IMG/VR virus record: IMGVR_UViG_3300037171_000041
Coordinates: 1-42,336 of that record
Source of the DNA: a virus
DNA: 42,336 nt
Reading direction: 5' to 3' (one strand)
The notes under the pieces were generated by a model that had not been told where the DNA came from, did no database searches, and saw only the letters and a program-made list of their open reading frames with translations. Positions 10,876 through 30,236 of the stretch are shown in pieces; the first letter of the stretch is position 1, and each line of letters opens with the position of its first letter. The position numbers were made by a program, and so were the translations under genes.

Positions 10876-13800
10876 TCACTGGGTCTCAAGTAGTTGCGCT
10901 GATGAATTTCCGCTAGTCACAATACCAAATGTGGCAACTACATTGCAGTCGGTTGGGGGCGTGGCTCCCGAATAGGTCGTCCCGCCGCTGCCACCGCAGC
11001 CGCTGATCGATTGCAGGTATTGGTTTGCCGCCGGTGTTGCGGTGCAGGTATAGAGCGAGCCATAGGCGTGTGATCCAGAGCAGCCCGTCACGGTGCCGCC
11101 GCCGCCCGGCACTGAAACCGAGATTGTGTAGTTGTTGGGCGCGAAGTTTGCAGTAATCCCCGAGTCGGCTTCCAGATTAAATTGTACACAGGGAACCGTC
11201 GAACCCGAGCATCCAGCCGAACCAAGAGCGTTGCTCCAATCAACGAAAGAATATCCCGCTACCGGATTCGGAGTGAGAGCGCCGATGGGCGTGGCCGAAA
11301 CATAGGTTCCCCCTACCGAGTTCGTGCCGGTGATGCTTCCGGTTCCCGCCGGGGATACGAGAGGAGTCCACATAAACGATTCAATGCCAAAGACAACCTG
11401 GACCGAGCACGTTGCCGCAGGCATCGTACCGGTGTAAGGCGGCGTCGGTGAGACTCCGCAACCGGTGACTGAATCCACAACCGATCCAGTTGCCGGAGCG
11501 ACCGTGATCGTATAAGCGTCGCCGTAGTGCAGCGACGTTGCAGACGGTGTTGCTGTGCCCGAGCCTGTCCCGCTGGTCGTCGCGCCGAGCGTGTAGGAGG
11601 TCTGGGTGAAGTTGGCCGTAGCGGCCGAGTTAGCCGAGATGACGAACGAGGCACAGGGGTTTGTCGCACCGGAACATCCCGCCGATCCCGACACCGAGGA
11701 CCAGTCATCAAAGGCATAGCCGGTCGCTGGGGTAGCGGTGCAGGCGCCAATGGTTGTTCCAGAGGTGTAGGTTCCTGCCGCGCAGTGCGTTCCTGCTAGC
11801 GTCCCACTTGCTACAGGGCTAATGGTGGGCGTCCACGTGTAGCTGCCGCCGCCGGTCGGCGTGAACGTCGCCGTGAGGGTCGTATTGGCCGAGAGCGAGG
11901 CAACGGTGCAAGTCGAGGTTCCCGAGCAGCCGCCGCCGGACCATCCAGCGAAAGCGTAACTGGCCGCTGGAGTCGCCATGCAAGGACCAATAGTCGTTCC
12001 CGAGGTATAGGAGCCCGTATTGCAGTTAGGGCCGGCGACGTATCCAGAAGACACAGGAGATATGACCTGGGTCAAGGTATAGGTGACAGCCGGAAAGACA
12101 GCGGTTACAGAAGTCGGCCCGTTCATGTTGAACGTGCAAGAGACACCAGAGCACCCGGAGACTCCTGACCAAGTCGGCGTGCCATAGCCTGAGCCCGGCG
12201 TGGCAACGCAAGTAATTGCCTTCCCATTTGGATAATTGCCAGAGGAGCAGGAGAGCGTCCCGGACCCGGAGGGTGAGACAGCGACGGTGAGCGCCGCAGA
12301 TTGCCCTAGCGAAATCGCTGAGATGGACTCGTAGTCCGTTGTACTAACGGGTCCGAAGGTGAACGGTACGAAGGTTGATTGATTGAGAGCGCCAAACGCG
12401 CCGCCGTATTGGTTAGAGGTATCGATGTCGGCGGGAGTGGTCCATGGTCCTCCCGGCGCGGTTGGAGCCGGATTACCTTTCGCGCCCCAGACGAGCACGT
12501 AGTCATTGCCTGAAAGGGTCGGCGCAGGCGCAGCGCAGGCTGTATTGCAGTTCGGGTAACCGATGGCCGTTGTACCGTCGAGAATCGCAGTTCCCGAACT
12601 GATGATGGGCTGAACGATGTCGCAATCGAGGTTGCCCATCGTCGAAGTTGTGTTGAGTGTGATGCTGCCAGTCGTACTTCCACCGGCCGCACTGGCCTCG
12701 TAAGCGCCGCCGGAGAACATATATTTGCCGCCTGCTGTGGCGGGCTGAGTCTTGAAGAGAGCCGGCACATTGGCCAGCGCATCACCGGAGACGGCGTTGA
12801 CGGTCGGCGCGGCCCCTTCGAGCCATCCCCACCAGACGAGGACCGCGGGCGAGCTGGGGGTAAGAGTCTTGGTCGCCGAGCAGGTCTGTGTTGTCCCGGC
12901 GCTCGACCATGAAACAGAGAAATTCGGCGTCGATGTCGCCGTGGTCCAGAGTCCGCCTGAGATTCCTGTGCCGGTGAGTGCGACCGTCTGCTGGGAACCC
13001 GATGTGCCGCCTGAATTATCCGTAAAGGTCAGTATGCCGTTCTGCGCCCCGAGAGCATTCGGTGTGAACGTTACAGTGACGGTGCAGGACTGGCCAGCGG
13101 GGAGCGAATACGCGAAAGTCGATTGGCAAGTATTCGTCGCGACTGCGAACTCAGAACTGCTCGAAATAATGCTGGCAATGATGAGTGAAGCTGTGCCGGT
13201 GTTCGAGAGCGTAACCGTCTGTGGGCCGCCTGTGACCGTAATGACCTGGTTACCGAAAGCGAGCGTAGATGGAGAGACAGAAGCGACCGGCTGGGCTGGT
13301 GGGGGCGCGCCGCTATACTGATAGGCTCCTACATCCCACGCACCGCCTGCAGGCCGCGAGGTCGGGGCTGCTCCCGGAGAACTGGTGCTGTGCGTGGTTG
13401 CGTTGTAGGCGACACCGTAGGTTGTCGATGCCGCACACTTCGCCGCTGCATCTGTCAAAGTGGGGTCGCTGCCCGATGCCGATGAAAGCGCGGCGCAGAA
13501 GGTAGAAGTCTTGTTGGTTCCCGCGCCCACAGTCGGCGCGCTCCCAGATTGCGGCGCGTAGACGGGCGTGGTCGAGCTTGTATATCCTGCCGCGTTGGCC
13601 GCCGCATTGGTCATCAAGATATTCGTTGCGGCGCTTCCCTGACCCGAGCAGGACGAACTGTAGATGCTGCCCACGTCTGAGGAGATGAAATGTATGTTCG
13701 CATCGGCGTAAGGTGCGCTGTACGGAGAAACACCGCAACTGATGTCGTTCCCGCCGCCAGCGATGTTCTGAAAGGTGTCGTTGAAGCGCGAGGTCGTGCC

Positions 13801-14958
13801 TTGGTTATAAGAGTTCGGCCCGTTGAATAGCTCCATCGGTCCCGCGTTCCAGACCACGTTATTGAACCAGTAGAGAGTCGCTCCTACTGGCGGAATAGGC
13901 CAGAATCCTACATTGGTTGTGGGACCGGAAAGGTACAGGTTCTCGAAAAGATTGTTATAGATGGCGTATGCGTTCGCCGGGCTGGCCTGATCCGGGCCAA
14001 CACTCTCCATGATATTCGAGTGACCGCTGTTGACGAAGTTATTGATGGTGTTGTCATGGAAGATGTGCTGCGTACGGGTGATGAACTGCGCGCCATCGTT
14101 GAAGTAGGAATAGGCAATCTCCCAGGCCCCGCCGTACATGAACTCCTGTTGCACCGGGTCTGAGTCCGCGCCGTCCACCACATCGAAGAGAAGCACGTCG
14201 CCGGGAGCCGATGGGCCGAGGGTGTAACCGGTCGGGAAGCCACGAAAGGCGCTCATGCATTGCGAATTGATGTCGCAATTCCCCGCTACGGTGAATTGGA
14301 CATGACTCCAACCATGAATATAAAGGTTGTAATAGAACGTTCCGGCGCTCGTCTCGTTGTAACTGACATAGATGGGGGACCAATTTGACGGGGTGGTACA
14401 GATGCCCGTCATTTCGAAGTTGTCGAGAATGTAATTTCCTACTCCTCCGCCGTCCCACATGTCGTTGCTTGGATGCGTGCAGGAACCGAGCGAGGTTGAA
14501 GTGGTTGCGGGGTTGTCCCACGTCAGGATAGGCCGCGCCCAAGACGAGCCGGAGAACCATGTCTGATCCACGCCGATATAGTTGGGATTGCCGCTCGTTC
14601 CGTTCCAACTCCAATCCCACGATCCGCCGGTATATGGCGAAGCTCCAGAATTGCCGAAGTGCCACGTATCGCCGCCGCGAAAGATGATGCCGACGCCGCC
14701 CGTAGGATTGAGTGCTGCTGCATTGCCTGTGGCCGCTGGCATACCTGGCGCGTGCAGCCACGGACTAGATTCGCTGGTGCCCGCATTCGAGTCCGATCCT
14801 GTCGCTGAGACGTAATAGCACGTTGTTACGCCAAGACTCGAAAGCGTGACCTGACTAAGCGGGCTCTGCCAGTTGATATAGTTCGCACCGGAGGGACACG
14901 AGGCGAACGCCAGCGGAGCGCAAAGCAGGAGAGTGACGAGTTGGAGGAGTTTTCTCAT
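10876..14958 (-). CDS. Giant secreted-type tail spike / adhesin-like protein
   Basis: 1360 residues. Begins with a Sec signal peptide (RKLLQLVTLLLCAPLAFA, likely cleavage after AFA). Residues about 40-550 look like a right-handed beta-helix (YYVSATGSDSNAGTSES, YILDNFEMTG, NNLFENLYLSG). About 555-665 is a choice-of-anchor-D domain (VSPSTLAFGNQ, TVTLSNTGTASL, GQSCTVTVTFTP). About 890-1350 are InlB-B / divergent repeat modules (ATPATGYAFDDWS, TLTATFTPTGG). Such domains are usual in secreted bacterial proteins and rare in virions. ATG overlaps the upstream stop (ATGA). Likely binds host surface glycans, but whether it is in the virion or exported is open. Confidence 0.75.
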   Translation of the reverse strand: MRKLLQLVTLLLCAPLAFASCPSGANYINWQSPLSQVTLSSLGVTTCYYVSATGSDSNAGTSESSPWLHAPGMPAATGNAAALNPTGGVGIIFRGGDTWHFGNSGASPYTGGSWDWSWNGTSGNPNYIGVDQTWFSGSSWARPILTWDNPATTSTSLGSCTHPSNDMWDGGGVGNYILDNFEMTGICTTPSNWSPIYVSYNETSAGTFYYNLYIHGWSHVQFTVAGNCDINSQCMSAFRGFPTGYTLGPSAPGDVLLFDVVDGADSDPVQQEFMYGGAWEIAYSYFNDGAQFITRTQHIFHDNTINNFVNSGHSNIMESVGPDQASPANAYAIYNNLFENLYLSGPTTNVGFWPIPPVGATLYWFNNVVWNAGPMELFNGPNSYNQGTTSRFNDTFQNIAGGGNDISCGVSPYSAPYADANIHFISSDVGSIYSSSCSGQGSAATNILMTNAAANAAGYTSSTTPVYAPQSGSAPTVGAGTNKTSTFCAALSSASGSDPTLTDAAAKCAASTTYGVAYNATTHSTSSPGAAPTSRPAGGAWDVGAYQYSGAPPPAQPVASVSPSTLAFGNQVITVTGGPQTVTLSNTGTASLIIASIISSSSEFAVATNTCQSTFAYSLPAGQSCTVTVTFTPNALGAQNGILTFTDNSGGTSGSQQTVALTGTGISGGLWTTATSTPNFSVSWSSAGTTQTCSATKTLTPSSPAVLVWWGWLEGAAPTVNAVSGDALANVPALFKTQPATAGGKYMFSGGAYEASAAGGSTTGSITLNTTSTMGNLDCDIVQPIISSGTAILDGTTAIGYPNCNTACAAPAPTLSGNDYVLVWGAKGNPAPTAPGGPWTTPADIDTSNQYGGAFGALNQSTFVPFTFGPVSTTDYESISAISLGQSAALTVAVSPSGSGTLSCSSGNYPNGKAITCVATPGSGYGTPTWSGVSGCSGVSCTFNMNGPTSVTAVFPAVTYTLTQVISPVSSGYVAGPNCNTGSYTSGTTIGPCMATPAASYAFAGWSGGGCSGTSTCTVASLSANTTLTATFTPTGGGSYTWTPTISPVASGTLAGTHCAAGTYTSGTTIGACTATPATGYAFDDWSSVSGSAGCSGATNPCASFVISANSAATANFTQTSYTLGATTSGTGSGTATPSATSLHYGDAYTITVAPATGSVVDSVTGCGVSPTPPYTGTMPAATCSVQVVFGIESFMWTPLVSPAGTGSITGTNSVGGTYVSATPIGALTPNPVAGYSFVDWSNALGSAGCSGSTVPCVQFNLEADSGITANFAPNNYTISVSVPGGGGTVTGCSGSHAYGSLYTCTATPAANQYLQSISGCGGSGGTTYSGATPPTDCNVVATFGIVTSGNSSAQLLETQ

Positions 14959-17402
14959 GGAATGCGCAATCCTGTGTCAGTCGTGGTCCCACAACTTCCA
15001 GCCGTGATAGTGAGTGCGCCAGCAGGTAGCGTTCCTGAAGTGGCGCAGCGATAGACAATATTCGTGCCCGAGTTAATGCCGACGATACGATTTAAAATAA
15101 CCCATCCACCAGCCGCGCGGTCAATCTCAAGGGGTGAATCGATATAAGCTCCAGCATCGGAATAAGCTTGAATTTCATAGTTTGAGCCTGCGTTGCTTCC
15201 GCTCTCAGAAGAGGCATTAGCGCGGGCTATCCAGCGAGGCAGGTTGTTTGTCTCGTACCAAAGATCGCGATTTTCTCCCGCCACCGAGGTCGTCAGGTAA
15301 GCGACTGCGTTTGTGGCTCCAACTGACACTCCAAGGGTTCCACCTAGTCTGACGTTTCCCGTTACCGTCAAGGAATTAAGCGTCGCAGCCTTGCCAATGG
15401 CATTGAGATTTCCGTTATCAATAATGGTCGAGTCATAGGCTGCGGTGATTGAAACATCTGCGATGGTACGGCTTGCGTTCGTATTCACGATGTAAGACTG
15501 GTTGACGTGATTGTTGATGGAGAACGATCCGCCCTGTCCGTCGATGAGATAGAGTCCGGTTGCAGCATCGATACTGATTGAGCCAGCCCCGTAGTTGTTA
15601 GTTATCTGACTCCCCAAGATATTAGAGCCTGAATCGGCTAGAAGAAAATAGCCGCTCCCACTTGGCGGAGGTCCGGTAGCGCGGATGTTTGTAAGATTGT
15701 ATCCACCCATCGCCCCATTATAGATAACAGTATTGGGAATGATGTGAAAAGCAGCGTAGGTCTCGGAGAGTCCAGGTGCCCATTCAATCACAGTCCCGTC
15801 AAAGGAAATCTGGCCCTGCACCGATGCATCAGCCTGGATGATCTGTACGGCGTCGTTACCTGCTTTGAGATACCCGCCTTTGTAGTTTAGGGAGGTTGCA
15901 GCGCCTTGTTCAATTTGGATAGGAACTGCGGATGGAGATGACGACTGATCCTCAATGTCTAGGCCCGATAAGTCCATTGCAAGGCTCGTTGAGGCAGTCA
16001 TGCCGCCAAAACTCAGATCGTCCGATTGGGAGAGATAGACAACGCGGAGAGCCCCACCACAGGTCTTGCGGATATAGGAACCTTTGTCAAACTGCAAGCC
16101 ATCCGTCGCCACGCCATAGAACGAAGCTTCTGTTGCGCACCCGTAGATCGTAACGCCATGGAAGTGAATGTCGCTTCCTACCAGATTTGATGTTCTCCCC
16201 AAAGCCATAATGAAATTTGGTGGCGACGAGGAGTTGTCCGCTTCGAGACCGATATCCTCAAAATTCAGGTAACTGGTGCCGACGAGCTTAAATGCCGTTG
16301 CTCCAGATCCCGTGTAGTCTATGACTGTATCTTGGCCTTCCTCTCCTCGGATTGTACCGTGAGCTACCGCTCCAAAATCCAGAGTGCAACTAGTTTTGTA
16401 GACGCCCGTCTCCCAATAGGGGGCATACAAAGAACCTCCAGGATGAGCCGCGAGCCATGTAATTGCATTGGTTAGCGGCGTGCAGTTGTCGGTGGAACTG
16501 TCTGCTTTAGCATTGAAATCAGCGACCAGATTTTTTGTCAGCACTGGTGTTGAGACGCTGCTCGCAGTTATCACCGCCGGACAGCTTGCCTCCCAGTTCC
16601 CGCCGTTCGACCACACACGCAGCAATTGGGGAGACGCGAGCGAAACGGAACTGAAAAGGCCAGGCGGAGGGCATTCGTTGAAGATATTGGTCGATCCGGA
16701 GACGATCGGCGCCAGAGTCCCCGATCCGACGGCGCTGAACGGAATCAGGCACTTCTCCGTATAAGCGGGCAGCGTAGCAACAGCCGCAGAATTCATGAGC
16801 GCGTAACCGTTGCTCGTTCCGCATTGGGCCGTGAATGGCGCAAACTCCTGGATCTGGTCGCCGATGCCCGCCGCGCCCGCACACGAGATTCCAGGGCCGC
16901 CATCTGTAGGCCAACAATCATTGTTGGACCCCCCATTCGGAGCCGCGAGCCCATTGCCCGTCAATTGGCCTGAAAACACAGGATTGTTTAGCGGCGTTCC
17001 GGTTGAGGAGGCGTTTAGCGTAACGGTGGCAGAACCGCTATTCCACGTCTGCGCCTGCACCAGAATGAAGGTTGCAGAGCCTACCGCAACACTCCAGTTT
17101 CCGTTGGCGGTGATGGTGGAGATCTGAGTCCACGTCTGCGAGTTGAGGTTCTGATAGGTTGCGGTAGGAGAGCTGATCGAGACAACCTGAAGCGTTCCCG
17201 ACCAAGTACCGGATACCGTGACGGTGATCCACGGCGCCGGGCCGGGGACACTGGTCTGCCCCAGAATCGGAACTTGCATGTAAACGCAGCTCCGCGCCGT
17301 GCAATTCGATGCACTGGCGTTGATGGTGCCGAAAGTGCTGGTGTTTTGGGCGAAAGCGGCAATCGGCAGAAATAGCGCGAAAATGAGCAATCGTTTCAAC
17401 AT
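14955..17402 (-). CDS. Tail spike-like protein with signal peptide and pectate-lyase-like beta-helix
   Basis: 815 residues from the ATG behind AAGGTGATT. Signal peptide LKRLLIFALFLPIAAFA, cleavage before QNTS. A strand-rich N-domain (about 20-160; VSGTWSGTLQVVSI) is shared with the protein at 24192. Then a pectate-lyase-3-like helix (about 300-650; VADFNAKADSSTDNCTPLTN, GTIRGEEGQDTVIDY). The C-terminal part (SGSNAGSNYEIQAYSDAGAY) is a known tail-fibre ending style. Probably a glycan-binding or depolymerising spike. Confidence 0.75.
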   Translation of the reverse strand: MLKRLLIFALFLPIAAFAQNTSTFGTINASASNCTARSCVYMQVPILGQTSVPGPAPWITVTVSGTWSGTLQVVSISSPTATYQNLNSQTWTQISTITANGNWSVAVGSATFILVQAQTWNSGSATVTLNASSTGTPLNNPVFSGQLTGNGLAAPNGGSNNDCWPTDGGPGISCAGAAGIGDQIQEFAPFTAQCGTSNGYALMNSAAVATLPAYTEKCLIPFSAVGSGTLAPIVSGSTNIFNECPPPGLFSSVSLASPQLLRVWSNGGNWEASCPAVITASSVSTPVLTKNLVADFNAKADSSTDNCTPLTNAITWLAAHPGGSLYAPYWETGVYKTSCTLDFGAVAHGTIRGEEGQDTVIDYTGSGATAFKLVGTSYLNFEDIGLEADNSSSPPNFIMALGRTSNLVGSDIHFHGVTIYGCATEASFYGVATDGLQFDKGSYIRKTCGGALRVVYLSQSDDLSFGGMTASTSLAMDLSGLDIEDQSSSPSAVPIQIEQGAATSLNYKGGYLKAGNDAVQIIQADASVQGQISFDGTVIEWAPGLSETYAAFHIIPNTVIYNGAMGGYNLTNIRATGPPPSGSGYFLLADSGSNILGSQITNNYGAGSISIDAATGLYLIDGQGGSFSINNHVNQSYIVNTNASRTIADVSITAAYDSTIIDNGNLNAIGKAATLNSLTVTGNVRLGGTLGVSVGATNAVAYLTTSVAGENRDLWYETNNLPRWIARANASSESGSNAGSNYEIQAYSDAGAYIDSPLEIDRAAGGWVILNRIVGINSGTNIVYRCATSGTLPAGALTITAGSCGTTTDTGLRIP

Positions 17403-17409
17403 AATCACC

Positions 17410-18966
17410 TTAGAATTGTGAGGGAAGCTGGATCGGAACACCCTGACCCGGGAGCCCGAGCTGCTGCCGTTGGCGCAAGTATTGCATCATAGCCGCGCTT
17501 CTCTCGCCGGGAGTCATAGTCGGTGAGTATGGCACCATTCCAGGTTGAGCATAGGGCGCGCCTGCTTGTGCGGGCAATTGAAGAGCAGGGCCTGTATGGG
17601 GGGTATATGGGCTGTAAAGGGCCGGTCCCGGCAATCTTACAGTTGGCGAAGTCGGCAAATCGGAATAGAAGTTTTGCAACTGGCGCTGAAGCTGATCCAG
17701 CTTCCCTCCGCGAACCATTCCTCCAACTTTACTCAAAGCCGGACCGAGGACACTGCCCCGCGTCAATTGCGGAGCACTCTCTATGGTGTTGCCGACGAAT
17801 GTTCTGGCGTCGAACGGAGCATTGGCTTTAGCTTCGGCCGCAGCAAGGCGCGGTGTGGCTCCTTGTAGTGCTCCTTGCTGTTGAATCAAGCCCCCCTCTA
17901 TCCTTTTGATTCCGCTAAAGTCCTCGCCAGTGGCTTGCTGCAATGCGTCGTAGTAGGCGTTCCGCGTCGAGTTCGCCATCTGGTGCACAAGCTCCGGGGT
18001 GCCCACAGACTTCGCGTAGGTCGGATTTCCGCGCAGGGTCGTATCTTCGACGTTCATGTATTTGCGGAACTCATTGAGGCCATCGAGAGTGGTCACACCC
18101 GCAGCGCGCGCACGCAAATTTTGAATCGTATTCAGATCTTCCGGGTCGATAGCTTGTAATTGCGCCTGCGTGGGCATAATGGACCGCTGTATAGAGGTCG
18201 TATCTACAGGCACGTTGCGCACCTGTCCGAGAATGGCATTATGCGACTGGTCAATAGCGGTTTGAGCCTGCCGGATGATTGCCTTGTGCGCCTGCAAAGC
18301 CGCCACCGGATCATTGCCATTGATCGCTGCGACATCTTGCGGGTTCTGAGCGGCGGTGTCGCGGATGATCGAGCCAGTCTGTTTGGCGATATCTTGCGGA
18401 ATAAAGTTTGGGTTGGCCCCCGCATTGCCTTCGGCTGTCACGGCGGCATGAGACTTCATTTGAGATTCGGTGAAATTCTCTCCGGGAACGAGCTTGGGAG
18501 AGCGAGACGGAATCGATTCTGCCGCATCCTCGACTTCCGCGCCTCCGGCACCCATGAGCGCCGCCTGGGGAAGCGCCGCGATAGCCTCACCGCCCGGATT
18601 CGAGATGAATGGACGCACCATGTTCTCAGCCGGTGTTAGCGTGTCTCCTGTGGCTATTTGCCCGGCCGTCTGCGATAAAGCGGACAGAGTATCGATCGGA
18701 TGGGCGAGCGGTGAGAACAGACGCACTGCGCCCGCCCCAAGATCGGCACCGGCCGACTTGAAGAATCCGCCAACCGAAGAAGTATCGAGCGGAGGCGCTT
18801 GCGCAGCGCTGTCAATCGCGCGGTGCAGGGGGTCTGTGCCGCGTAAGACCGAGCCCACACTCCAACCTGGAGGCGCCGGAGATTTCTCGATCAATCCGGC
18901 AGAGAGATCAACGCTTCCCGCTTTCGGTACCATCCCCGCCGAGAGATCGACCTGAGACGTCGCCAT
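17410..18966 (-). CDS. Internal virion / DNA ejection protein
   Basis: 518 residues from the ATG overlapping the upstream stop (TAATG). N-terminus has a repeated DLSAGM/DLSAGL motif. A long helical, Gln/Ala-rich middle (QDVAAINGNDPVAALQAHKA) and a Pro-rich C-terminus follow. In short-tailed phages such large helical proteins next to a partner of similar size form the ejection channel. No enzyme motif seen. Confidence 0.6.
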   Translation of the reverse strand: MATSQVDLSAGMVPKAGSVDLSAGLIEKSPAPPGWSVGSVLRGTDPLHRAIDSAAQAPPLDTSSVGGFFKSAGADLGAGAVRLFSPLAHPIDTLSALSQTAGQIATGDTLTPAENMVRPFISNPGGEAIAALPQAALMGAGGAEVEDAAESIPSRSPKLVPGENFTESQMKSHAAVTAEGNAGANPNFIPQDIAKQTGSIIRDTAAQNPQDVAAINGNDPVAALQAHKAIIRQAQTAIDQSHNAILGQVRNVPVDTTSIQRSIMPTQAQLQAIDPEDLNTIQNLRARAAGVTTLDGLNEFRKYMNVEDTTLRGNPTYAKSVGTPELVHQMANSTRNAYYDALQQATGEDFSGIKRIEGGLIQQQGALQGATPRLAAAEAKANAPFDARTFVGNTIESAPQLTRGSVLGPALSKVGGMVRGGKLDQLQRQLQNFYSDLPTSPTVRLPGPALYSPYTPHTGPALQLPAQAGAPYAQPGMVPYSPTMTPGERSAAMMQYLRQRQQLGLPGQGVPIQLPSQF

Positions 18967-20531
18967 TACGGGATCACCTGATATCCCTGCTGCTGCGCTG
19001 CCGCCTTGGCTGCGTTCGGATCGCCCTTTGGATTTGCAGCGCGCCATGCCCCCAGACTAAATTGATGCGTCTGCGGCGTGGGTGCAGCGGCGGGGCTAGC
19101 GTTTTGAGTGGGAGGATTGACCTGCACGGGCTCAACGGGCTTAAACTTCGCGCCGTATGTCTGATTTATTGTGGAAAGGTCATTCTCGTATTTGGCCTGA
19201 GACCCGCGCTGCATCACATCCTGCATCTGAGCCATGTCGCTCAGTACAGAGGTGGGGAACGACCGACCAGTGAGAGCGCCTCCGAGATGCCCCTGCAATC
19301 TCTGCAGCCACGAGCCCCCCCCGTAATTCTGAATCTCGGCCATATTGATGCGGTGGACGCCCTGCGAAGTCGTAATTTGCAGCGCGCCCTCTTGAGGGAT
19401 GATCTTGTAGGAAACCACGTTCCCGCTCTTCGCAGCGGCGAGCATCTGCTGAAGCGTCTGCGTGACCGACTGCGCCTGAGCATAGTCCTCCCCTGCTTTC
19501 GTTGCGGCTGCTGTCGCAGGTGCAACCAAGTGCGGTGGGACCATCGCAAGGGCGGCATCGCTGCCCCGCGCCGCTTGGGCTTCTACGTTGGCGCGTGCCG
19601 CGCCCTCGGCGGCCGCGACCTGGACTTTCCCCTGCTGAATCTGCGGATTCGTTTGCATCCTTACCGCCTGATTCACTTCTCCCTGCTGAATCTGCTCAGC
19701 GCCGGGAGCGGTCCCCATAGCGATGGATGCGGCCGACGGCTCGTAGAGCGGGCTATTTGGGTCAGTTTTCCCTTGCGCGTTCTGGAAGGTAATCTTTTTT
19801 TGCGCGGCATCAAGAAGTTGAGCATAGCCGCCCAGGCTTTTAGCTTGGATTTCTAACTGCTGCCGCGCCTGCCCTGGATTCTGCTGCGCAAGCGTTGCGA
19901 GTTGCATGGCCTGTTGGACGTGTGATGGGTCGAAGAGGCCATTGTGAGAGAGTTGTTGCGCTGTCTGTTGTATCGCTTGCGGCAATTGCGCGTCTGGAGT
20001 GTTCAGCACTCCATTCATCGCATCGACGATCATGCCGTTCTTGGTCTTCATCGTTTCGGCATTCGAGGTTCCAGCCCGCGCGTCATCCATCGCAGTCTCG
20101 GCGGCCTGATTTTTCAGCTTGGAAACATACTCTGTGAGTGGCTGGATAGCCTGGGCCGACGCTCCGTTTTTCATCGCCAGCGTGATCAAATCGTCGTAAT
20201 TCGGCAGCGCACTGGAAGAGCCAGAGGAAGGTGCGGCAGCGGATGTATCGCTCGCCGACGCCGCGCCGGTTGCCGGGGATTGAGGAGCGCTTTGCATCTT
20301 TACCCATTGCTGATACGACGCCTGCATCGCTTTTGCATCATTGAGTTGTATCTGGGTCTTCTGATTCTCCATCGTGCCAGCCTGCACCTGATTTTGGAGC
20401 GCGGCTTGCCGAAGCGGTTGCTCCTGCATCTGGTTACGAATACCCATCATCTCAGCATATTGCTGAAGCGGGTTCGCCTGCGTTGGGATGGGCGGTTTTA
20501 CGTCAAGAGCCGGAAGAGGGATGGTTGCCAT
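18966..20531 (-). CDS. Internal virion / DNA ejection protein
   Basis: 521 residues. MATIPLPALDVKPPIPTQAN and a following Gln-rich coiled-coil region (MRNQMQEQPLRQAALQ-like stretches, about 25-75) are typical of podovirus ejection proteins. Mid-region Ala/Gln-rich helices, C-terminal Pro-rich tail ending GYQVIP. Start overlaps the stop of the 330-residue protein (TAATG). Role inferred from family style and position. Confidence 0.65.
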   Translation of the reverse strand: MATIPLPALDVKPPIPTQANPLQQYAEMMGIRNQMQEQPLRQAALQNQVQAGTMENQKTQIQLNDAKAMQASYQQWVKMQSAPQSPATGAASASDTSAAAPSSGSSSALPNYDDLITLAMKNGASAQAIQPLTEYVSKLKNQAAETAMDDARAGTSNAETMKTKNGMIVDAMNGVLNTPDAQLPQAIQQTAQQLSHNGLFDPSHVQQAMQLATLAQQNPGQARQQLEIQAKSLGGYAQLLDAAQKKITFQNAQGKTDPNSPLYEPSAASIAMGTAPGAEQIQQGEVNQAVRMQTNPQIQQGKVQVAAAEGAARANVEAQAARGSDAALAMVPPHLVAPATAAATKAGEDYAQAQSVTQTLQQMLAAAKSGNVVSYKIIPQEGALQITTSQGVHRINMAEIQNYGGGSWLQRLQGHLGGALTGRSFPTSVLSDMAQMQDVMQRGSQAKYENDLSTINQTYGAKFKPVEPVQVNPPTQNASPAAAPTPQTHQFSLGAWRAANPKGDPNAAKAAAQQQGYQVIP

Positions 20532-21524: not shown

Positions 21525-21995
21525 TTACTCCAGATTCCTCGTAAATACCGAAGTTGTTTTTCTGAATTTCTTGCGCCGCGCCAAAAGACGCTCTAAGGAA
21601 CCGCCAATCGGAACGGAATATCCTATGGCGGTGCATCCGTTTTCTTTTGCGTGGCGCTCGACTTTGATAAGCAATCCGAGCCCTAATGCCGTGCGCCGGA
21701 AAGACGGCGCGATGAAAACATTCTCAACAATTGCCACTTTCTTTCCGTATTGAGGGTCAATATAGATCAAAACAGCGGCAAAGCCTACCAGCGTATCGGC
21801 TGCGAAGGCCCCGAAACATTGCAATGCGCCATGCCGCTCCATGGACGCGTACATTTCAGGTTGAGGATTGATTTTCCCGATCTCAGGCAGAGAACATTCG
21901 TCTCCGTATTGAGAACACAGAGCGTCCCAATTGGGTGCTCTAAAGATTCCCGAAGCGAGGATCTTGCGAATTCCCGTCAATGCACTTCCGCCCAT
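21525..21995 (-). CDS. GNAT-type N-acetyltransferase
   Basis: 156 residues from ATG at 21995; a TTG start 33 nt earlier is possible. The core has the GNAT order: QCFGAFAADTLVGFAAVLIY (beta4), VENVFIAPSFRRTALGLGLL (acetyl-CoA pyrophosphate loop region) and a C-terminal half with AIGYSVPIGG. GNAT genes inside podovirus ejection-gene clusters are common; the target is unknown. Overlaps the 3' end of the 591-residue tail gene by 19 nt. Confidence 0.75.
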   Translation of the reverse strand: MGGSALTGIRKILASGIFRAPNWDALCSQYGDECSLPEIGKINPQPEMYASMERHGALQCFGAFAADTLVGFAAVLIYIDPQYGKKVAIVENVFIAPSFRRTALGLGLLIKVERHAKENGCTAIGYSVPIGGSLERLLARRKKFRKTTSVFTRNLE

Positions 21996-23752
21996 GTACT
22001 GATAGCCCAAGTTCCGGCCGGCGAGCAAGTCGAGGTTACGGTTGGGGTCACCGAAAAAGTGTCGCCCGGTGGCACTACGAATGTAAAACTTACGCCGGGG
22101 CTATTGCTGCACTCGTTAGCGATCTCCCCTCCATTGAAGGTCAGTCCCGCATCGGTAAAAGCTGCCTGGTATTGGCCCCCCGTCCCCGACGTCCCAGTCA
22201 ATGAGATACTGACAATTTCCGTCACTGCGTAGCTGGCGCAATTCGTGTACGTGGTTGAAGCGGCATAGGTTGAAGTGGTGGGGCAACTTGTTCCGCCGCT
22301 ACATGACGCGGTCAGGCAGTTCGTGAGCCCGCTCACAACTCCAGCGGTCGAAGAGCCGACCGAGTTCCAGCTCGTGCCGTTGAAGACGCCGATCGCGGTT
22401 GTACAGGAAGACCCTCCGGAAGCAACCGTCGGAGCCTCTAGGAAATTTGTGGGCCAGACAAAGCTCCTGTTACCTGTTGAGTCCTGGCAGATATTGAAGT
22501 TGATTACCTGCCCGAAGAATCCGCTCGTCAGGGTGCTGGACGTGACGTCACCAGTCAGCGTCATGTTAAATTGGTTGTAAATGCCCGCATTGAAGACCGG
22601 CGTCGCGCTGAAGACAACCGCCTGTGGGCTGTAGGGGTAGGTTGTGTTGGCCTGAATCCAATTGGTGCCGTTATAGACGAAGACGGGGGTTATGCAGGCA
22701 TTCGGCGCTGCGGGCACGGCGGGAGGGTTCAGGAACGAGGGATCCCACGTGAACGTAAATCCGCCAACGCTGTTTTGACAGATATAGGTCATGATCTCCT
22801 GACCTAAAACTGCGCCCGTAAGCGTCATCGTCGTGTTTTGGTTGAGCGTGAGCGAAAAAATATAGTAGGGATCGACCGCGAAGGTCACAGCGGAGTCTGG
22901 CGTCACCACGTCGTATGTGGCGGCTGTCTGCGGGCCGAGTGCGTTGACATATTGCCACAGCGCGCCATCAAAGAAGAACATCGGGGTGATACAACCGTTG
23001 GGGGTAGTCGGCAGCGTGGGGGGGTGCACGAAGCCTGAGGGCCAGGCGAAAGTGTATCCGCCTGTAGCGTTCTGGCATAGATCAAACTGAATGAATTGGC
23101 CAGCCAATCCGCCGCTCACGGTCGATGAGGAGACGTTGGCGGTAAGCGTCATGGTAAAGGTTGTGTAGGACCCGGCGTCGAACACGGGCTCTGCCGCAAA
23201 TGTCATAGCATCGACTTTGCCCGCAATTTCTGTGAAGCTGCCGGCCGCCGGTGTTCCGCCGGATGTGCCGATTGGACCATTGAAATATGTGCCGTTTACC
23301 GGTCCCGGTGTCGTTCCGCCAATGGTGCCGTCATCGAACGTCGAAGTCGTGATGGTGGAACTCTCAATCGTTGCGCCTGAAATCACGCCGCCGATCCACT
23401 CGCTGCCTGGAACCTGATCAACTGACCATTGCTGCACGCCAGTCGAGCAATTTGTTCCGCCATAGCTGAAGGCGATGAATTTGTATGTTTCCGGACCCAG
23501 CCACATGACGGCGCTGCCGGTTGAGTCGAGAATCACCGGATTTGTGTTGGGCGTCCCGCCAGTGTAATCCGTGTATGTGGCTTGCGGGGTCGATGTTCCC
23601 CCCGCATAGGTAAAAACGCAGCCATTCGCGAGCGGCACGCCATTGGGATCGACAGCAGTAAATCGCGGCGTGCGAAACGGAGACACGGATACTGAAGCCG
23701 CTACTGCGATTGGCAGCGCCAGGAAAATCGAAAGTAACGCTAATCTGCGCAT
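21977..23752 (-). CDS. Tail fibre-like protein with signal peptide and triplicated domain
   Basis: 591 residues. Signal peptide RRLALLSIFLALPIAVAA. Then a widespread phage tail-spike N-domain (FTAVDPNGVPLANGCVFTYA, TGGTPNTNPVILDSTGSAV, 30-130). Three copies of a roughly 95-residue module follow (each with FTMTLTANVSSSTV / TWDPSFLNPPAVP-like and a CIT/CTT motif ending in F-G-W), about 180-480. C-terminal domain with CSNSPGVSFTFVVPPGD. RBS AAGGA. Likely receptor-binding. Confidence 0.75.
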   Translation of the reverse strand: MRRLALLSIFLALPIAVAASVSVSPFRTPRFTAVDPNGVPLANGCVFTYAGGTSTPQATYTDYTGGTPNTNPVILDSTGSAVMWLGPETYKFIAFSYGGTNCSTGVQQWSVDQVPGSEWIGGVISGATIESSTITTSTFDDGTIGGTTPGPVNGTYFNGPIGTSGGTPAAGSFTEIAGKVDAMTFAAEPVFDAGSYTTFTMTLTANVSSSTVSGGLAGQFIQFDLCQNATGGYTFAWPSGFVHPPTLPTTPNGCITPMFFFDGALWQYVNALGPQTAATYDVVTPDSAVTFAVDPYYIFSLTLNQNTTMTLTGAVLGQEIMTYICQNSVGGFTFTWDPSFLNPPAVPAAPNACITPVFVYNGTNWIQANTTYPYSPQAVVFSATPVFNAGIYNQFNMTLTGDVTSSTLTSGFFGQVINFNICQDSTGNRSFVWPTNFLEAPTVASGGSSCTTAIGVFNGTSWNSVGSSTAGVVSGLTNCLTASCSGGTSCPTTSTYAASTTYTNCASYAVTEIVSISLTGTSGTGGQYQAAFTDAGLTFNGGEIANECSNSPGVSFTFVVPPGDTFSVTPTVTSTCSPAGTWAISTWAEVH

Positions 23753-23789
23753 TGTAATTCCTTGGCTTTCTCCCTGCTCGTGTGGAGCA

Positions 23790-24026: not shown

Positions 24027-24190
24027 TCATGCCCAAACTCATTCCAGAACGCCACGGCCGCCACTGGGGTACCATCGGGATACGTTGCCCCCTCCATGAA
24101 TCCCACTTCAACTGAACCGCCTCCCAATTTCCGAACGAGATCTTGCAAATGCTTTGTGACTCGTTCGGACATCGGAATCGAGCGTTTCAT
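23948..24190 (-). pseudogene. Neck/virion-morphogenesis-like protein, C-terminus replaced
   Basis: 80 residues. RVTKHLQDLVRKLGGGSVEV, GFMEGATYPDGTPVAAVA and FWNEFGHEGP match small phage head-tail/neck proteins, which continue with a PRPFF-type ending of about 60-100 residues. Here the match stops at GHEGP and an unrelated, out-of-frame tail follows (APLLAARTTPESSPQ). The frame break coincides with the start of the orphan fibre C-domain. May still be translated, but is probably not functional. Confidence 0.6.
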
Positions 24191-24191
24191 C

Positions 24192-25799
24192 TTAATACGT
24201 CACCCAATTTGTTCCGTTGCAGACCACCGGGGATTGCACCGTGCTGCCACCGGTGTATGTTCCCAGGAATGTTGGTATGGTGGCATCGCTCACCTGTAGT
24301 TGGACTCCAGTTGTTGATGCTCCGCAAGTTGGCAATGGCGTTCCAGCGACACTGTAAAGGATGTTTGTTTGGATGCCGTTTGTGTACTGCCAAAACCCAG
24401 CCGCGACCGAATAATCTGAAGAGATGTTGATATTCCCCAGAACCGGCGTCCCTGAAACGATCAAGGGAGTGGATGTCCTTGTGAGCGCGTTTCCGCTCAA
24501 ATTACTGCTGAGTCCGTCGTCGGTCTGCAATGTAATGCTTGAATAGAAATCGGCCCCGGAAGTGGAAACAGCCGAGTTGTGAATCGTGACTCCTCCAGCA
24601 AACGACGTTCCGGAAATTCCTATTGCAACGGCGAATTCAATATCAGATATGCTCCCGTTGGAGTTCTCTGCTGATCCGGCTATTAGTTGCACGTTAACCA
24701 CGCCGGTTAGCTGATAGCTGTCCACGTCGGTGCTTTGCAACACCACATTGCCGCTTGTACCGTTGACGACAACAAATCCATTTCCGTAATAATTGGCTAC
24801 CTTCGCAATGGGAGCATTTATCAAAATTGAGGTATACCCGCCGTTGGGTAGAGTGTTGCCCTGTTCGACATCGTTATCCAATTCCGTGTTAGGGCCTTCT
24901 ATGTCAAAAAGTGCTGGCGTCCCAGTTGCGGATGTTTGATATATCCCCAAATCTCGGATAAGAGATGCTGTGCAATTCGATGACGTGGTGACACCACTCC
25001 CGGTTCCGGCGTAGTTGAAAATTTGACCATTGCCGTAGATGGCGTTATATCCGAACAGATTGGACGCGCTACAAAGCGTAATGCCCACAGTACCAAGATT
25101 GCACTGCGTCGGCGGGGATGGGCCAACCGGAATCATAATGGCCGCGTTCTGATCGAGCGCGGCCTGAATCGCCACGTGATCATCGGTTGAGCCGTCGCAT
25201 TTCGCCGAGTAGGGTGGTTGTGTTACGTCCACAGCGAAGGGCGGAACATAAGCGAGCGCCCCGGAGCCACTATTGGTCAAAACACCGAAAGAGTTAGCTG
25301 GAAGAGGATTGCCGTTGAGACCGGTGACGGTCGGATCGGGAAAACTTCCACCAAGATCACCGCCAGCCGCCCCGACGGCGTCCAGACCGGCTGTAGCAAC
25401 TGAGGCGGCGATAACGGCGGCGCCACTCGTATAGCTGCTTGCGTAGACGCAAATCTGCGTGAGGCCAGCCGGATTGATGGTCCATGTCCCATTTGAAGTT
25501 GTGGAGGTAACGGGACTTCCGGATGGGATTGGTTGGGCACTGACACTTACCCATGTCGAGCCATTGACTGAGCCGACAAATTGCAGGGTGCCGACCCACG
25601 TTCCGGAAATTGTCGCCGCATAGGCAGAGGCAGTTGGCGGTAGCACCAGGTAGACATATCCCGCGCCGGCCCCGGAGCACGAAGAGGTTTGCAGCGTGAT
25701 TTTTCCGTAGGTGCTAAGAGATGGATTCTGGGCGCGGAGAGGCAATGACCATCCAAAGATAGTCAAAATGCCCGCGAAAAGCCATTTAGAAATAGTCAT
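24192..25799 (-). CDS. Tail spike-like protein with signal peptide and beta-helix
   Basis: 535 residues from ATG at 25799 overlapping the previous stop (ATGA). Signal peptide TISKWLFAGILTIFGWSLPL, cleavage before QNPS. Domain about 28-170 (ATISGTWVGTLQFVGSVNGS) resembles the N-domain of the 815-residue spike. From about 230 a pectate-lyase-like helix (AKCDGSTDDHVAIQAALDQN, the usual start of such helices in phage spikes). C-terminal domain CNGTNWVTY. Likely glycan-binding or depolymerase. Confidence 0.75.
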   Translation of the reverse strand: MTISKWLFAGILTIFGWSLPLRAQNPSLSTYGKITLQTSSCSGAGAGYVYLVLPPTASAYAATISGTWVGTLQFVGSVNGSTWVSVSAQPIPSGSPVTSTTSNGTWTINPAGLTQICVYASSYTSGAAVIAASVATAGLDAVGAAGGDLGGSFPDPTVTGLNGNPLPANSFGVLTNSGSGALAYVPPFAVDVTQPPYSAKCDGSTDDHVAIQAALDQNAAIMIPVGPSPPTQCNLGTVGITLCSASNLFGYNAIYGNGQIFNYAGTGSGVTTSSNCTASLIRDLGIYQTSATGTPALFDIEGPNTELDNDVEQGNTLPNGGYTSILINAPIAKVANYYGNGFVVVNGTSGNVVLQSTDVDSYQLTGVVNVQLIAGSAENSNGSISDIEFAVAIGISGTSFAGGVTIHNSAVSTSGADFYSSITLQTDDGLSSNLSGNALTRTSTPLIVSGTPVLGNINISSDYSVAAGFWQYTNGIQTNILYSVAGTPLPTCGASTTGVQLQVSDATIPTFLGTYTGGSTVQSPVVCNGTNWVTY

Positions 25800-25978
25800 G
25801 GGTTGATTGCTTTCTGAAGCGCCGCGATTTGGGCCTGAAGAGTGGCGATGGTAGCCTCGTGGCTCACAAGTTGCGCCTGGATCGATGCCATCTGATTCTG
25901 GCCCATCAATGTGAAGCCACTCGGCTGCTTCGGATCGATATACTTGACCGAGAACTGGAACGGAGCCGTATTCGCCAT
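25796..25978 (-). CDS. Small coiled-coil protein
   Basis: 60 residues. FQFSVKYIDPKQPSGFTLM then a heptad-like helix (SHEATIATLQAQIAALQKAI). Both ends overlap neighbours (TAATG upstream, ATGA downstream), so it is a real operon member. It could be a trimerising adaptor between the DNA-stabilisation protein and the spike; not recognised. Confidence 0.65.
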   Translation of the reverse strand: MANTAPFQFSVKYIDPKQPSGFTLMGQNQMASIQAQLVSHEATIATLQAQIAALQKAINP

Positions 25979-27513
25979 TACGTGATTTCCTCATAGCGCT
26001 GGCTCAAGCGTTGCTGTGGAAGCTGATAGAGCGATCCGGCCTTAAGGTACGCATCGACAATGCGCCACGGCACCGGATCGGTTACCGAAACCTCATAGAC
26101 GCGATCACGCGCCTGTCCAAGCCGGTTCCAGTAGACGCGCTGCCGATATTCTCCCGTCTGACCCGCCGAACGAACGTATTCATTGCTCCAAGTCCTGCCG
26201 CCATCGTTCGACCACCGCAATATCATTTGGGGGCCGCGAGGCTCGCCGGCGCCGTCAAGCAGTGGCGGCATTGGGCCGTCTCCTACTTCGACATCGACCT
26301 GGAGGAAGCTGTGAAAGATGCGAACCTGCTCAACCGAGATATGCGGCGCGCGCCGAACGCGGCGAATCGGCTGTCCATTGTCCTGATAAGTGTAGATCGA
26401 CATGGCGTAGATAACGCCGGTGTTCCAGTCGCCTACGAGGTTCTGACCAAAGCAAAAGGCATGGCAAGTCGAGTTATGAGCCGTCCATCCGCTCGGCGAT
26501 TGTGGTGACCAGTGTCCGCGTTCATGCCACATTTGCGTGGCAGTATCGTATACCCAGGTGGCACCGAATCCCTGATTGGCGCTCGGAAAGCGCAGAACCC
26601 AAAAGGTGTGCCCCTGATCGCGGTAAGCGTAGCCAATCGCATCAGTTCCCCGACTTGGATATGCCGCCCAAGCGGTTTCTACCGCATGATTCGAGATGCG
26701 AGAAGGGGAATATCCGTTCGCCCGCCATGCGATCCCGATGCCGGTCTGGTAGCCGCCGATCCAGGAAGGCGTATTATCCAATACCGCGAGAGAGCTTGGA
26801 GCGCTGATGCCCTCTTCCATGAAAGCGCCCGGAATCACATCGAACGGCGTTACGGCGCTGGCCCCAGAGTTGTAATAGACCTGCGCATGACCATTGAGCC
26901 CGTAGACCCAAAGCTGATTGAAGGCGCTCACGATAGCTGCGACGTTCTCCGGGAACACCAGAACTTGCTCGACGCCAAGAGGATTCCAGGTCGTACCGTC
27001 TAGCAGCGCAGATACCTGGAATTTGTTGCTGTTGGCCAGCAAAGCCACAAAGTAGCCCGAGCAGTAGACCACCATCGATACGGTGCCTTGAAGCCCAAGA
27101 ATCGGACCACTCAGTACATTGGCAGTCAGATCCAAGGAGTACAGATTCCCGGCGGAACATACAACCAGTTGATTTCCGTCTGCCCCATTTGAAGCCATTG
27201 TTACTTGGTTATAGTCGTCACCGATGTTGCCCCGGTTATTGTTTGAGCCGTCTTTATAGACCTCGTAAAGGTTTGGGCCGCCCACTGCAAACAGGCGTCC
27301 ATCAATCGCCAACATGCCGCGCACAGCCCTCGTAGGGGCAATGAGCGACGGAAGAGCAGCAAAGACCGACAAGCCGGGCGTAGGATAAAGCGCCATCGCG
27401 GATTTACCGAGCTGGCTCTCGATCGACTCCGGATACCAATTCATCGCCTGCTGGCAATCGGCGGTGATCGACTGCGACGTGTACGAAGGTCCACAGAACC
27501 CAAAGCGTCCCAT
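25978..27513 (-). CDS. Packaged-DNA stabilisation protein, P22 gp10-like (tail hub)
   Basis: 511 residues from the ATG overlapping the stop of the gp4-like gene. FGFCGPSYTSQSITADCQQA, MNWYPESIESQLGKS and LYPTPGLSVFAALPS are the family start, followed by a repeated-blade/propeller-like central part (VAAIVSAFNQLWVYGLNGHA) and a C-terminal QRVYWNRLGQARDRVYEVSV domain. In P22 gp10 closes the portal channel and carries the tail needle/spike. The frame is open upstream to 27924, but the overlap ATG is preferred. Confidence 0.8.
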   Translation of the reverse strand: MGRFGFCGPSYTSQSITADCQQAMNWYPESIESQLGKSAMALYPTPGLSVFAALPSLIAPTRAVRGMLAIDGRLFAVGGPNLYEVYKDGSNNNRGNIGDDYNQVTMASNGADGNQLVVCSAGNLYSLDLTANVLSGPILGLQGTVSMVVYCSGYFVALLANSNKFQVSALLDGTTWNPLGVEQVLVFPENVAAIVSAFNQLWVYGLNGHAQVYYNSGASAVTPFDVIPGAFMEEGISAPSSLAVLDNTPSWIGGYQTGIGIAWRANGYSPSRISNHAVETAWAAYPSRGTDAIGYAYRDQGHTFWVLRFPSANQGFGATWVYDTATQMWHERGHWSPQSPSGWTAHNSTCHAFCFGQNLVGDWNTGVIYAMSIYTYQDNGQPIRRVRRAPHISVEQVRIFHSFLQVDVEVGDGPMPPLLDGAGEPRGPQMILRWSNDGGRTWSNEYVRSAGQTGEYRQRVYWNRLGQARDRVYEVSVTDPVPWRIVDAYLKAGSLYQLPQQRLSQRYEEIT

Positions 27514-28484
27514 TACGGATTCGGCATTCCAGAATAGTAGTTGTAGTCGCTCATATTGTTCTGCACCCCAGGCATTCCCACATCCCCGGTGAGGCCGCGC
27601 GGGGACTTGATGTTGTTCGACTGCACTGACTTGATGGCCAGCCTCCAGTTGTCTTCCTGTTGTGCCGTCCAACTTCCCTGAAACGGTCCCACCATATCCC
27701 GCGCCAATTGCATCGTCACGGCGTCCTGGTAGCCGGGCGGAAGACTGAAGTTGTAATTCAGGCTCGGAAACTGAGGAATTGTGCCCCAAATAGCCAATCG
27801 AATCAGATAGGCATAATTCGGAACGGGCCACAGATAGATTGATCCATTCGGCCAGTCGGCATCGTAATAAAGGTCGGTCGGGATGTCGGTTTGGAGATTC
27901 TTGACGCGAACATTCATCCACCACTCGCGATCCCGGATATTCATCGGAATATCGACGTATTCTTGGACGCTCATGTTATTCAAAACGAGATTTGCCTGCA
28001 AAATCTTCTGCGGCCGCTGCCCCATATTGGGTGTGGCGAAGGTGGGAGCCGAATTCGCGGTTAAGACAACCGTTCCGGTATCGGCTGCGAGCCCTACCGC
28101 ACCGCCGATCAGCGGAATGCTGAACTTTGCCGCCGTCGCAGACTGAACGTTTCCGGTTCCATTCAGACCATTTATCGAGTTTGAAACCGTTACTGACTGC
28201 CCATTGGTGAAATTATTGGCGCAGAAATACGTCGCGACATTGTTAGCGCGCTCACTTTGCGTCAGTTGGCCTTGCGGCCCAATGGTGTGGGGATTTAGAC
28301 CGGGAACAAGCGTATAGGTGGGCAGGCCGGTGTCGTAGATGAACGGCTTGCGCGCCGCCCATCTATCGACTATCCGGTTGAGCTTTGCCAGCGCAAAAGT
28401 CGCGTCCGCAGAGCTGGGTCCTTCCTGAATCGCTATTGCATTGATTTCCTGAAGGGCACCGGTGATGATGTCAAGTGCCGTCAC
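27513..28484 (-). CDS. Head-to-tail adaptor, P22 gp4-like
   Basis: 323 residues, GTG start in a GTGA overlap. DIITGALQEINAIAIQEGPS, LAKLNRIVDRWAARKPFIY and PNYAYLIRLAIWGTIPQFPS, with LPPGYQDAVTMQLARDM, match the tail-accessory-factor gp4 family. These proteins bind the portal after packaging. Longer than P22 gp4, with an inserted strand-rich domain (about 65-145). Context between capsid and gp10-like genes agrees. Confidence 0.75.
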   Translation of the reverse strand: MTALDIITGALQEINAIAIQEGPSSADATFALAKLNRIVDRWAARKPFIYDTGLPTYTLVPGLNPHTIGPQGQLTQSERANNVATYFCANNFTNGQSVTVSNSINGLNGTGNVQSATAAKFSIPLIGGAVGLAADTGTVVLTANSAPTFATPNMGQRPQKILQANLVLNNMSVQEYVDIPMNIRDREWWMNVRVKNLQTDIPTDLYYDADWPNGSIYLWPVPNYAYLIRLAIWGTIPQFPSLNYNFSLPPGYQDAVTMQLARDMVGPFQGSWTAQQEDNWRLAIKSVQSNNIKSPRGLTGDVGMPGVQNNMSDYNYYSGMPNP

Positions 28485-29448: not shown

Positions 29449-29458
29449 AATGCTCCTT

Positions 29459-29485: not shown

Positions 29486-29492
29486 ACCAGAA

Positions 29493-30236
29493 TTACGGCT
29501 CGAAGCGCGGCACATCGAGCAGGTAGGTACCTGCTGCCGGTGTGCAAGCCGCGGCTGTAAGGGTTGTGAAATACAAGCTCACCGTGTTGGCTGCCGACAC
29601 CGATGCGCTCGTGAGAGGGCACAGGGAGGTAGCTGCAGGCTGGCTTGCCACAATGATGGGCTCTCCTACAACGAGGCCCGCCACTGTGAAGGTTTGCGCA
29701 GCGGTCTGAATGGCCGCCGAACTCGCCGCTGGGGTGATTGACCCAGTGGTTAGAAGCGGCTCCCAGTTATACACCCCACTTGAAAGGGTGACGCAATTCC
29801 AGTAACTGACCTTCGACTGATAGGCCGGGCCAATTACCAGAGTGGGGTTGTACGTGATAGACGGGGTGCAAGTCCCCTGCGGAATCGAACTCAGGAAGAC
29901 ATTCGGACTCCCCACCCACACGACAGCCGCCGCGTTATGCGCTACCGCTTTGGTGCCATTGGCGCCGCGCACTACCGTGATGGATTTCCCGCTCAGCGAC
30001 TCGACCGTCAACGCTTCCTTGTCAATGACAAGAGTCGTGTTGAAGCCGGGTGTCTGAGAGGGGCCGCCAAAAGCGTTGGGTGCGACGATTCCGGTAGCGG
30101 AAACCACCTGAATCACCTGTTGTACCCTATCCGTTGCACCGGATAGGGTGGTTTGAGTCAAGGCCGTCTGCGCTACCGAAAACACCGGAAACACAAGGAA
30201 AGCCAGGAGGGAGAAGGTTTTAATGAATTTGTTCAT
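29493..30236 (-). CDS. Signal-peptide-bearing coat-adjacent protein (possible decoration)
   Basis: 247 residues. Begins NKFIKTFSLLAFLVFPVFSV, a Sec signal with cleavage before QTALTQ. The mature part has the phage beta-fold segment IDKEALTVESLSGKSITVVR followed by GANGTKAVAHNAA, typical of small capsid-associated or adhesion folds. AAGGAGAAACC before ATG. Placed directly after coat, where decoration proteins usually lie, but export would remove it from the cytoplasm. Confidence 0.65.
   Translation of the reverse strand: MNKFIKTFSLLAFLVFPVFSVAQTALTQTTLSGATDRVQQVIQVVSATGIVAPNAFGGPSQTPGFNTTLVIDKEALTVESLSGKSITVVRGANGTKAVAHNAAAVVWVGSPNVFLSSIPQGTCTPSITYNPTLVIGPAYQSKVSYWNCVTLSSGVYNWEPLLTTGSITPAASSAAIQTAAQTFTVAGLVVGEPIIVASQPAATSLCPLTSASVSAANTVSLYFTTLTAAACTPAAGTYLLDVPRFEP

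Follow-up and report, generated by a model that had tools for sequence, protein, structure and literature searches.

Morphogenesis of tailed phages is taught as a cytoplasmic process that is complete before lysis. Spike synthesis and attachment normally take place there too, and in P22 the spikes join finished heads as the last assembly step. Tailspikes of the P22 gp9 type, as found in P22, Sf6, Pam1, Pan3 and PBR31, are products of late genes surrounded by P22-type head genes (portal, coat, gp10) and carry at the mature N-terminus a head-binding domain with a single known function, attachment of the spike to the virion. Synthesis of virion proteins with a signal peptide, followed by maturation outside the cytoplasm, is known for the coat proteins of the Inoviridae, filamentous phages that assemble in the membrane, with no lysis and no head. 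Signal-arrest-release (SAR) endolysins and spanins of tailed phages also use the general secretory (Sec) pathway of the host, but they are lysis effectors of the envelope, not virion appendages; JG068 gp47 is an example of a SAR endolysin (PMC3765740). Tail-fibre-like proteins exported by Bdellovibrio (PMC10769870) work outside the cytoplasm, as is proposed here for phage spikes, but are cellular proteins with no virion attachment. The target proteins of phage diversity-generating retroelements lack signal peptides (PMC6199706), in agreement with the usual rule. A search of open-licence papers on phage tail signal peptides, acidobacterial phages and cysteine parity returned no report of Sec-exported tailspikes, a negative that within this scope is weak evidence. 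Here we describe a virus, the 42,336-base IMG/VR entry IMGVR_UViG_3300037171_000041 analysed at its full length (the window), in which five late genes, designated by their start positions 14958, 17402, 23752, 25799 and 30236, have predicted Sec signal peptides. Its late genes lie on the minus strand and form the set of a P22-like podovirus: large terminase, portal, scaffold, P22-type coat, gp4-like, Hc3/gp10 and DNA-ejection genes, followed by lysis genes. It shares signal-bearing putative virion proteins with the filamentous phages but is tailed, with a P22-like head and lysis genes.

The 23752 gene (21977..23752, minus strand) encodes a tailspike of 591 residues, with 14 cysteines in the mature protein. 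Its leader, MRRLALLSIFLALPIAVA (23699..23752, minus strand), ends at a predicted cleavage site AVA-AS, and the mature protein opens, directly behind the signal, with a head-binding domain of about 95 residues of the P22 gp9 type (23408..23698, minus strand). The domain profile matches PDB 7eeq, 'Tailspike head-binding domain' (E=3e-19), and also the Pan3 tail spike 9vyg. The AlphaFold 2 (AF2) model of the domain, with a predicted local distance difference test (pLDDT) of 88, gave a Foldseek probability of 1.00 to the head-binding domains of Pan3, Pam1 and P22, the structures at this level comprising 1lkt, 2vky and the in situ P22 tail structures 8tvr, 8eb7 and 9jg6. Homologues in isolated phages are annotated as tail spikes (Xanthomonas phage PBR31, Shewanella phage X14 and Pseudoalteromonas H6/1), and the majority of the homologues belong to phages that also encode the related coat. 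A Sec leader therefore sits directly before the virion-anchoring domain of a P22-type tailspike, while the known gp9-type members examined open with the domain itself: its copies from phages of Xanthomonas, Shewanella, Vibrio, Rhodoferax, Pseudoalteromonas and Pseudomonas have no signal and begin at residue 1-8. The 23752 domain differs further in a cysteine pair placed by alignment, the first residue in NGCVFTY (23618..23620, minus strand) and the second in a lineage-specific insertion, GGTNCSTG (23447..23449, minus strand). Because the head-binding domain itself defines the family, the signal before it is a difference of the variant and not of the family. Tailspikes of this type are further marked by a trimeric beta-helix that binds the receptor or acts as an endoglycosidase; beyond the N-domain the 23752 protein has no family match except a weak tail-assembly one (phrog_19976). 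The window showed no spike that has a head-binding domain but lacks a signal.

Leaders were evaluated with a scorer written for this analysis, which considers a charged n-region, a hydrophobic core and the -3/-1 rule; at the cut-off of 6 it recovers 31 of 32 well-known E. coli signal peptides. The initial annotation had assigned Sec signals to all five genes, with Ala-x-Ala sites often followed by Gln. All five open reading frames (ORFs) are present at the starts given above, and four of the leaders are clear: those of the 23752 gene (score 8.9), the 17402 gene (MLKRLLIFALFLPIAAFA, 17349..17402, minus strand; 9.4, AFA-QN), the 14958 gene (MRKLLQLVTLLLCAPLAFA, 14902..14958, minus strand; 8.6, AFA-SC) and the 30236 gene (MNKFIKTFSLLAFLVFPVFSVA, 30171..30236, minus strand; 7.9, SVA-QT). 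That of the 25799 gene (MTISKWLFAGILTIFGWSLPLRA, 25731..25799, minus strand; LRA-QN) reaches only 4.85 and is weaker than had been described, also at its cleavage site. The Ala-Gln junction occurs in three of the five, the other two being Ala-Ala and Ala-Ser. In all five leaders the n-region has a net charge of +1 to +2 and the hydrophobic core runs uninterrupted over 8-10 residues with a mean hydropathy of 2.25-3.39; signal peptidase I would cleave at the predicted sites. The 23752, 30236 and 17402 starts are preceded by the Shine-Dalgarno (SD) or SD-like sequences AAGGA, AAGGAG and AAGGTG, respectively, and the other two are ATGA-coupled to an upstream stop, 14958 to the 17402 gene and 25799 to the end of a 60-residue ORF (25796-25978).

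None of the remaining head, packaging and ejection genes of the window scores above 3.8. The window has 1027 start codons followed by 60 open codons, of which 12 reach the cut-off; six are starts of four of the five genes and the other six are antisense or membrane-type, which sets the chance level of a signal-like start at about 0.6% per start. Chance hydrophobic N-termini are ruled out by this genome-wide scan together with conservation across relatives. A good-quality lipobox, L-(A/S)-(G/A)-C, is found in none of the five leaders, and lipoproteins processed by signal peptidase II were discarded; only the 14958 protein has a cysteine near the cleavage site (FASC), in a poor lipobox, and its 36 cysteines, an even number, fit cleavage by signal peptidase I. 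Inspection of the five leaders revealed no twin-arginine motif, which excludes substrates of the twin-arginine (Tat) pathway.

The initial annotation took four of the products for tail spikes. By sequence homology this identity is secured for the 23752 protein only. The 17402 gene (14955..17402, minus strand; 815 residues, 14 mature cysteines) lies after the ejection and before the lysis genes, the position of the tail spike of Xanthomonas phage PBR31, and the 25799 gene (24192..25799, minus strand; 535 residues, 8 mature cysteines) has an N-domain homologous to that of 17402, the two being paralogous. Both look like spikes, and PDB and Pfam searches with their bodies gave no spike match; residues 659-769 of 17402 match 8ojn, a cell wall surface anchor protein. 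The large 14958 product (10876..14958, minus strand; 1360 residues, 36 mature cysteines) is instead a mosaic of host-type extracellular domains, with divergent InlB-type repeats and an ASH-like Ig domain. The gene said to adjoin the coat gene, 30236 (29493..30236, minus strand; 247 residues), does so, and the arrangement is conserved in relatives. Its protein has a domain common to phage tail fibres (phrog tail fiber match, 1e-5), and in an alignment of 26 homologues the mature Gln (Q23), Cys123 (29868..29870, minus strand) and Cys148 (29793..29795, minus strand) are invariant. The AF2 model of this protein was too poor for use (pLDDT 64, predicted template modelling score 0.43).

Signals of this kind were proposed to be a property of the whole block, and the relatives support this strongly. 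Iterated hidden Markov model searches found the 30236-type protein in about 40 diverged relatives, almost always with a signal that ends at Ala-Gln or near the domain. After dereplication, 19/20 clusters of 30236-type proteins bear a signal, as do 8/9 for 23752 and 3/3 for 17402. No cluster of scaffold (0/43), gp4-like (0/27), Hc3 (0/19), ej1 (0/17), portal (0/11), ej2 (0/10) or TerL (0/8) proteins has one. The leaders diverge freely in sequence between relatives while the properties of the n-, h- and c-regions are kept. The longer stretches of ten relatives mostly contain two to five signal-bearing genes each, and one record without a 30236-type gene (L068) has signals on tail genes of 418, 863, 277 and 1076 residues. 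The related coat is encoded on more than 300 viral contigs; a search of about 85,000 bacterial and archaeal genomes found four coat relatives, one of them in the isolate Acidicapsa dinghuensis 4GSKX, on a scaffold of 1.16 Mb. Because all four come from Acidobacteriota, the host of the window virus is very probably an acidobacterium. Six copies of the head-binding domain in Acidobacteriota genomes have a signal (L087, L089, L090, L190, L191 and L192), one further match being weak and signal-less (L193), and the signal is kept in Acidobacteriota prophages or contigs, the A. dinghuensis isolate included.

The property is seen again in phages unrelated to this group. Tunturi_1 and Tunturi_2 are podoviruses that were isolated on Tunturiibacter and described in PMC11924767, a text that does not mention signal peptides. 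In their tail block five genes bear signals, one of them annotated as tail spike or pectin lyase, and the products have 20, 10, 20, 1 and 32 cysteines (34 for the last in Tunturi_2). They resemble the window virus in their Acidobacteriota hosts, podovirus shape and cysteine-rich signal-bearing tail block, but no protein similarity to the window was detectable in head or tail, the lysozyme being the sole exception. The tail blocks of the podovirus Tunturi_3 and the siphovirus Tunturi_4 contain no signal-bearing genes, which rules out a trait of all acidobacterial phages. The scorer found one match each in P22, crAss001 (first 50 kb), FCL-2 and Mx8. These are the spanin of P22, a lysis regulatory protein of crAss001 and annotated hypothetical proteins of FCL-2 (lipoprotein-like) and Mx8, so that no recognised tail-spike gene is among them. 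A trait of P22-like or podovirus tails in general is ruled out by P22, crAss001, PBR31 and others.

The second signature is found in the cysteines. The five mature signal-bearing proteins of the window contain 4, 8, 14, 14 and 36, all even numbers. Out of 39 dereplicated signal-bearing clusters 38 have any cysteine, and the number is even in 37 of these (binomial p=1.4e-10), as against 114/241 clusters without signal; core virion clusters give 56/107. A single orthologous family makes up half of the signal-bearing clusters, and with that family removed the number is even in 17/18. Within the head-binding domain itself, 108 distinct copies being compared, two cysteines are found in 20/23 with a signal and in 1/85 without (Fisher p=1e-17, relatedness ignored). 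The positions of the pair differ between sub-lineages (23/80, 19/22, 25/31 and 74/82), and judged from these sequences it is not one inherited pair. In the tree of the domain, the supported branches require the signal label to have changed at least four times. Even cysteine numbers are favoured among the exported proteins of bacteria that use oxidative folding (PMC7678975, reviewing Dutton et al. 2008), and VKOR-type oxidases, which drive disulfide formation, are found in acidobacteria (PMC4555120). The signal-bearing spikes would then contain disulfides, and oxidative folding in the periplasm would supply a reason for export beyond those considered in the initial annotation.

Some relatives depart from these patterns or extend them. 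One head-binding-domain protein with the cysteine pair (L219:10014-11018) starts MSINAG and has no signal, while its phage keeps the signal on the 30236-type protein; the signal of the former was probably lost recently. In six records with a related coat (L069, L060, L070, L071, L072 and L076) the 30236-type domain lies inside signal-less proteins of 540-710 residues with 17, 10, 7, 7, 4 and 2 cysteines, respectively, odd and even numbers alike, and these relatives offer an internal control. A 6.4 Mb contig of an Acidobacteriota genome (G245:C1, L191) has two successive signal-bearing tail-type genes, with 8 and 2 cysteines, in a probable prophage. In another phage (G665:C1:25996-27277, record of L121) three head-binding domains are arranged in tandem, two of them in short ORFs and at least two of the three with a signal peptide; these copies may be a cassette store for tailspike N-termini.

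The explanation favoured here, with reasonable confidence, is that these P22-like podoviruses of Acidobacteriota export and oxidise their spikes and join them to the heads at or after lysis. The outer tail appendages (the 23752, 17402, 25799, 14958 and 30236 proteins) would be synthesised as Sec preproteins and translocated to the periplasm, where signal peptidase I would cut off the leader and the paired cysteines would be oxidised to disulfides, probably serving stability outside the cell, in soil. The signal-less proteins would meanwhile assemble and fill heads in the cytoplasm. Once the lysis proteins removed the membrane barrier, heads and spikes would meet, and the head-binding domain, by then the mature N-terminus, would dock on the tail hub. 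Translocation of the five proteins is predicted from their leaders. Export with oxidation of the spikes is highly probable and the presence of the signal-bearing proteins in the virion is likely, while joining at or after lysis is held with more reserve. Cell-surface display, secreted depolymerases and assembly after lysis had all been offered as reasons for export; assembly at or after lysis is preferred because the signal directly precedes a domain known only as a virion anchor, and the other two are less favoured possibilities. Joining late and outside the cytoplasm is plausible because P22 spikes are added last to finished heads; a search of the open-licence literature for P22 tailspikes added to tailless heads in vitro found no paper. 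In its broadest form, a two-compartment assembly gained repeatedly in podoviruses of Acidobacteriota, with DNA-filled heads in the cytoplasm, the adsorption apparatus in the periplasm and infectivity only on mixing at lysis, the proposal is slightly on the favourable side.

Several points weigh against the favoured explanation. The 25799 signal falls under the cut-off, and only gene position and weak domain matches assign the 30236 and 14958 proteins to the virion. The association of signal and cysteine pair, in a tree-aware sign test, comes down to four independent pairs, of which two to three agree and none oppose (p ~0.25); three copies (L150, L191 and L192) have the signal but no domain pair, and L219 has the pair but no signal. 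No virion proteomics or fractionation of these phages was found.

The main rival, which we regard as unlikely, is that the proteins, once exported and oxidised, do their work in the periplasm or on the surface of an infected or lysogenic cell, in superinfection block, receptor masking or as secreted depolymerase, and form no part of the virion. Sec export by itself would place them there, the 14958 protein is built of host-type extracellular domains (InlB repeats, ASH-like Ig), and most known phage proteins with a signal peptide, that is spanins, exclusion proteins and SAR endolysins such as the one cited above, work in the envelope. However, the 23752 protein keeps behind its signal a head-binding domain that is homologous to signal-less annotated tail spikes and has no obvious use away from the virion, and the window shows no spike with such a domain but no signal. 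Moreover, the signal-bearing genes sit in the late head/tail operon and track it across relatives. The possibility that the hydrophobic N-termini are uncleaved segments, interacting with membranes or trimerising on virion proteins assembled in the cytoplasm, is far less probable. Cleavage is so far a sequence prediction, which leaves room for such segments, but position -1 retains a small residue throughout dozens of diverged sequences and -3 usually obeys the signal peptidase rule. A mature Gln is invariant in the 30236 family, the divergence of the leaders spares their n-, h- and c-region properties, and the bias towards even cysteines is confined to signal-bearing proteins. Hardly more than marginal, and a shade less probable still, is non-adaptive hitchhiking, in which the phages took up the N-termini, together with surface-binding modules, from genes for secreted host proteins and do not need them for assembly. 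The host-type secreted domains of the 14958 protein would suit such an origin, but the 23752 signal precedes a phage-born domain, the signal is retained over large divergence in two families (the 19/20 and 8/9 clusters above), and it was gained or lost at least four times with cysteine pairs alongside and recurs in an unrelated lineage. Wrong start sites, with translation beginning downstream so that leaders are not made (a GTG at 23686 in the 23752 gene would drop the leader), are rejected, since every upstream start is backed by SD or ATGA coupling and the leaders keep across relatives a signal-peptide character that untranslated DNA would not.

If spikes are indeed exported, oxidised and joined late, completion of the virion would be tied to lysis, phage receptor-binding proteins could be stabilised by disulfides as secreted enzymes are, and the Sec and oxidative-folding machineries of the host would become host factors for infectivity. 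Annotation pipelines that count a signal peptide against a virion role would misfile such genes, for which a signal together with an even cysteine number is a simple search key. Periplasmic production would be advisable for recombinant spikes from such phages. Tunturi_1, Tunturi_2 and A. dinghuensis, an isolate with a related prophage, make the idea testable now.

The reference genes of the late block, all on the minus strand and without signal, are the P22-type coat (30246..31496; phrog_283, 5e-51), the portal (32574..34655; phrog_156, 5e-76), the head closure gene of Hc3/gp10 type (25978..27520; phrog_578, 5e-94) and a block of three ejection-protein genes (17410..21523), each product with no cysteine and the first matching phrog_598 (DNA ejection). 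At 29493-29622 (minus strand), use of GTG 29622 would make the 30236-type gene and the next gene share as many as 130 bases in different frames; a start near 29451 is the more likely one. A short ORF (MKRSIPMSERVTKHLQDLVRKLGGGSVEVGFMEG...) followed by an out-of-frame tail-like fragment lies between the 25799 and 23752 genes (23836-24190, minus strand), apparently the remains of a gene that decayed or was frameshifted. A 57-bp repeat, with units of about 19 residues (ASGCPALTSLKADAAKTVY), forms tandem arrays at 39451-40851 and 41190-42257 (plus strand) and 4-520, and the ORFs with these arrays have a common leader, MCKFASFVLTKDREFWLD. Judging by the further copies at its left end, the record seems to have ends that cut through, or duplicate, the array.

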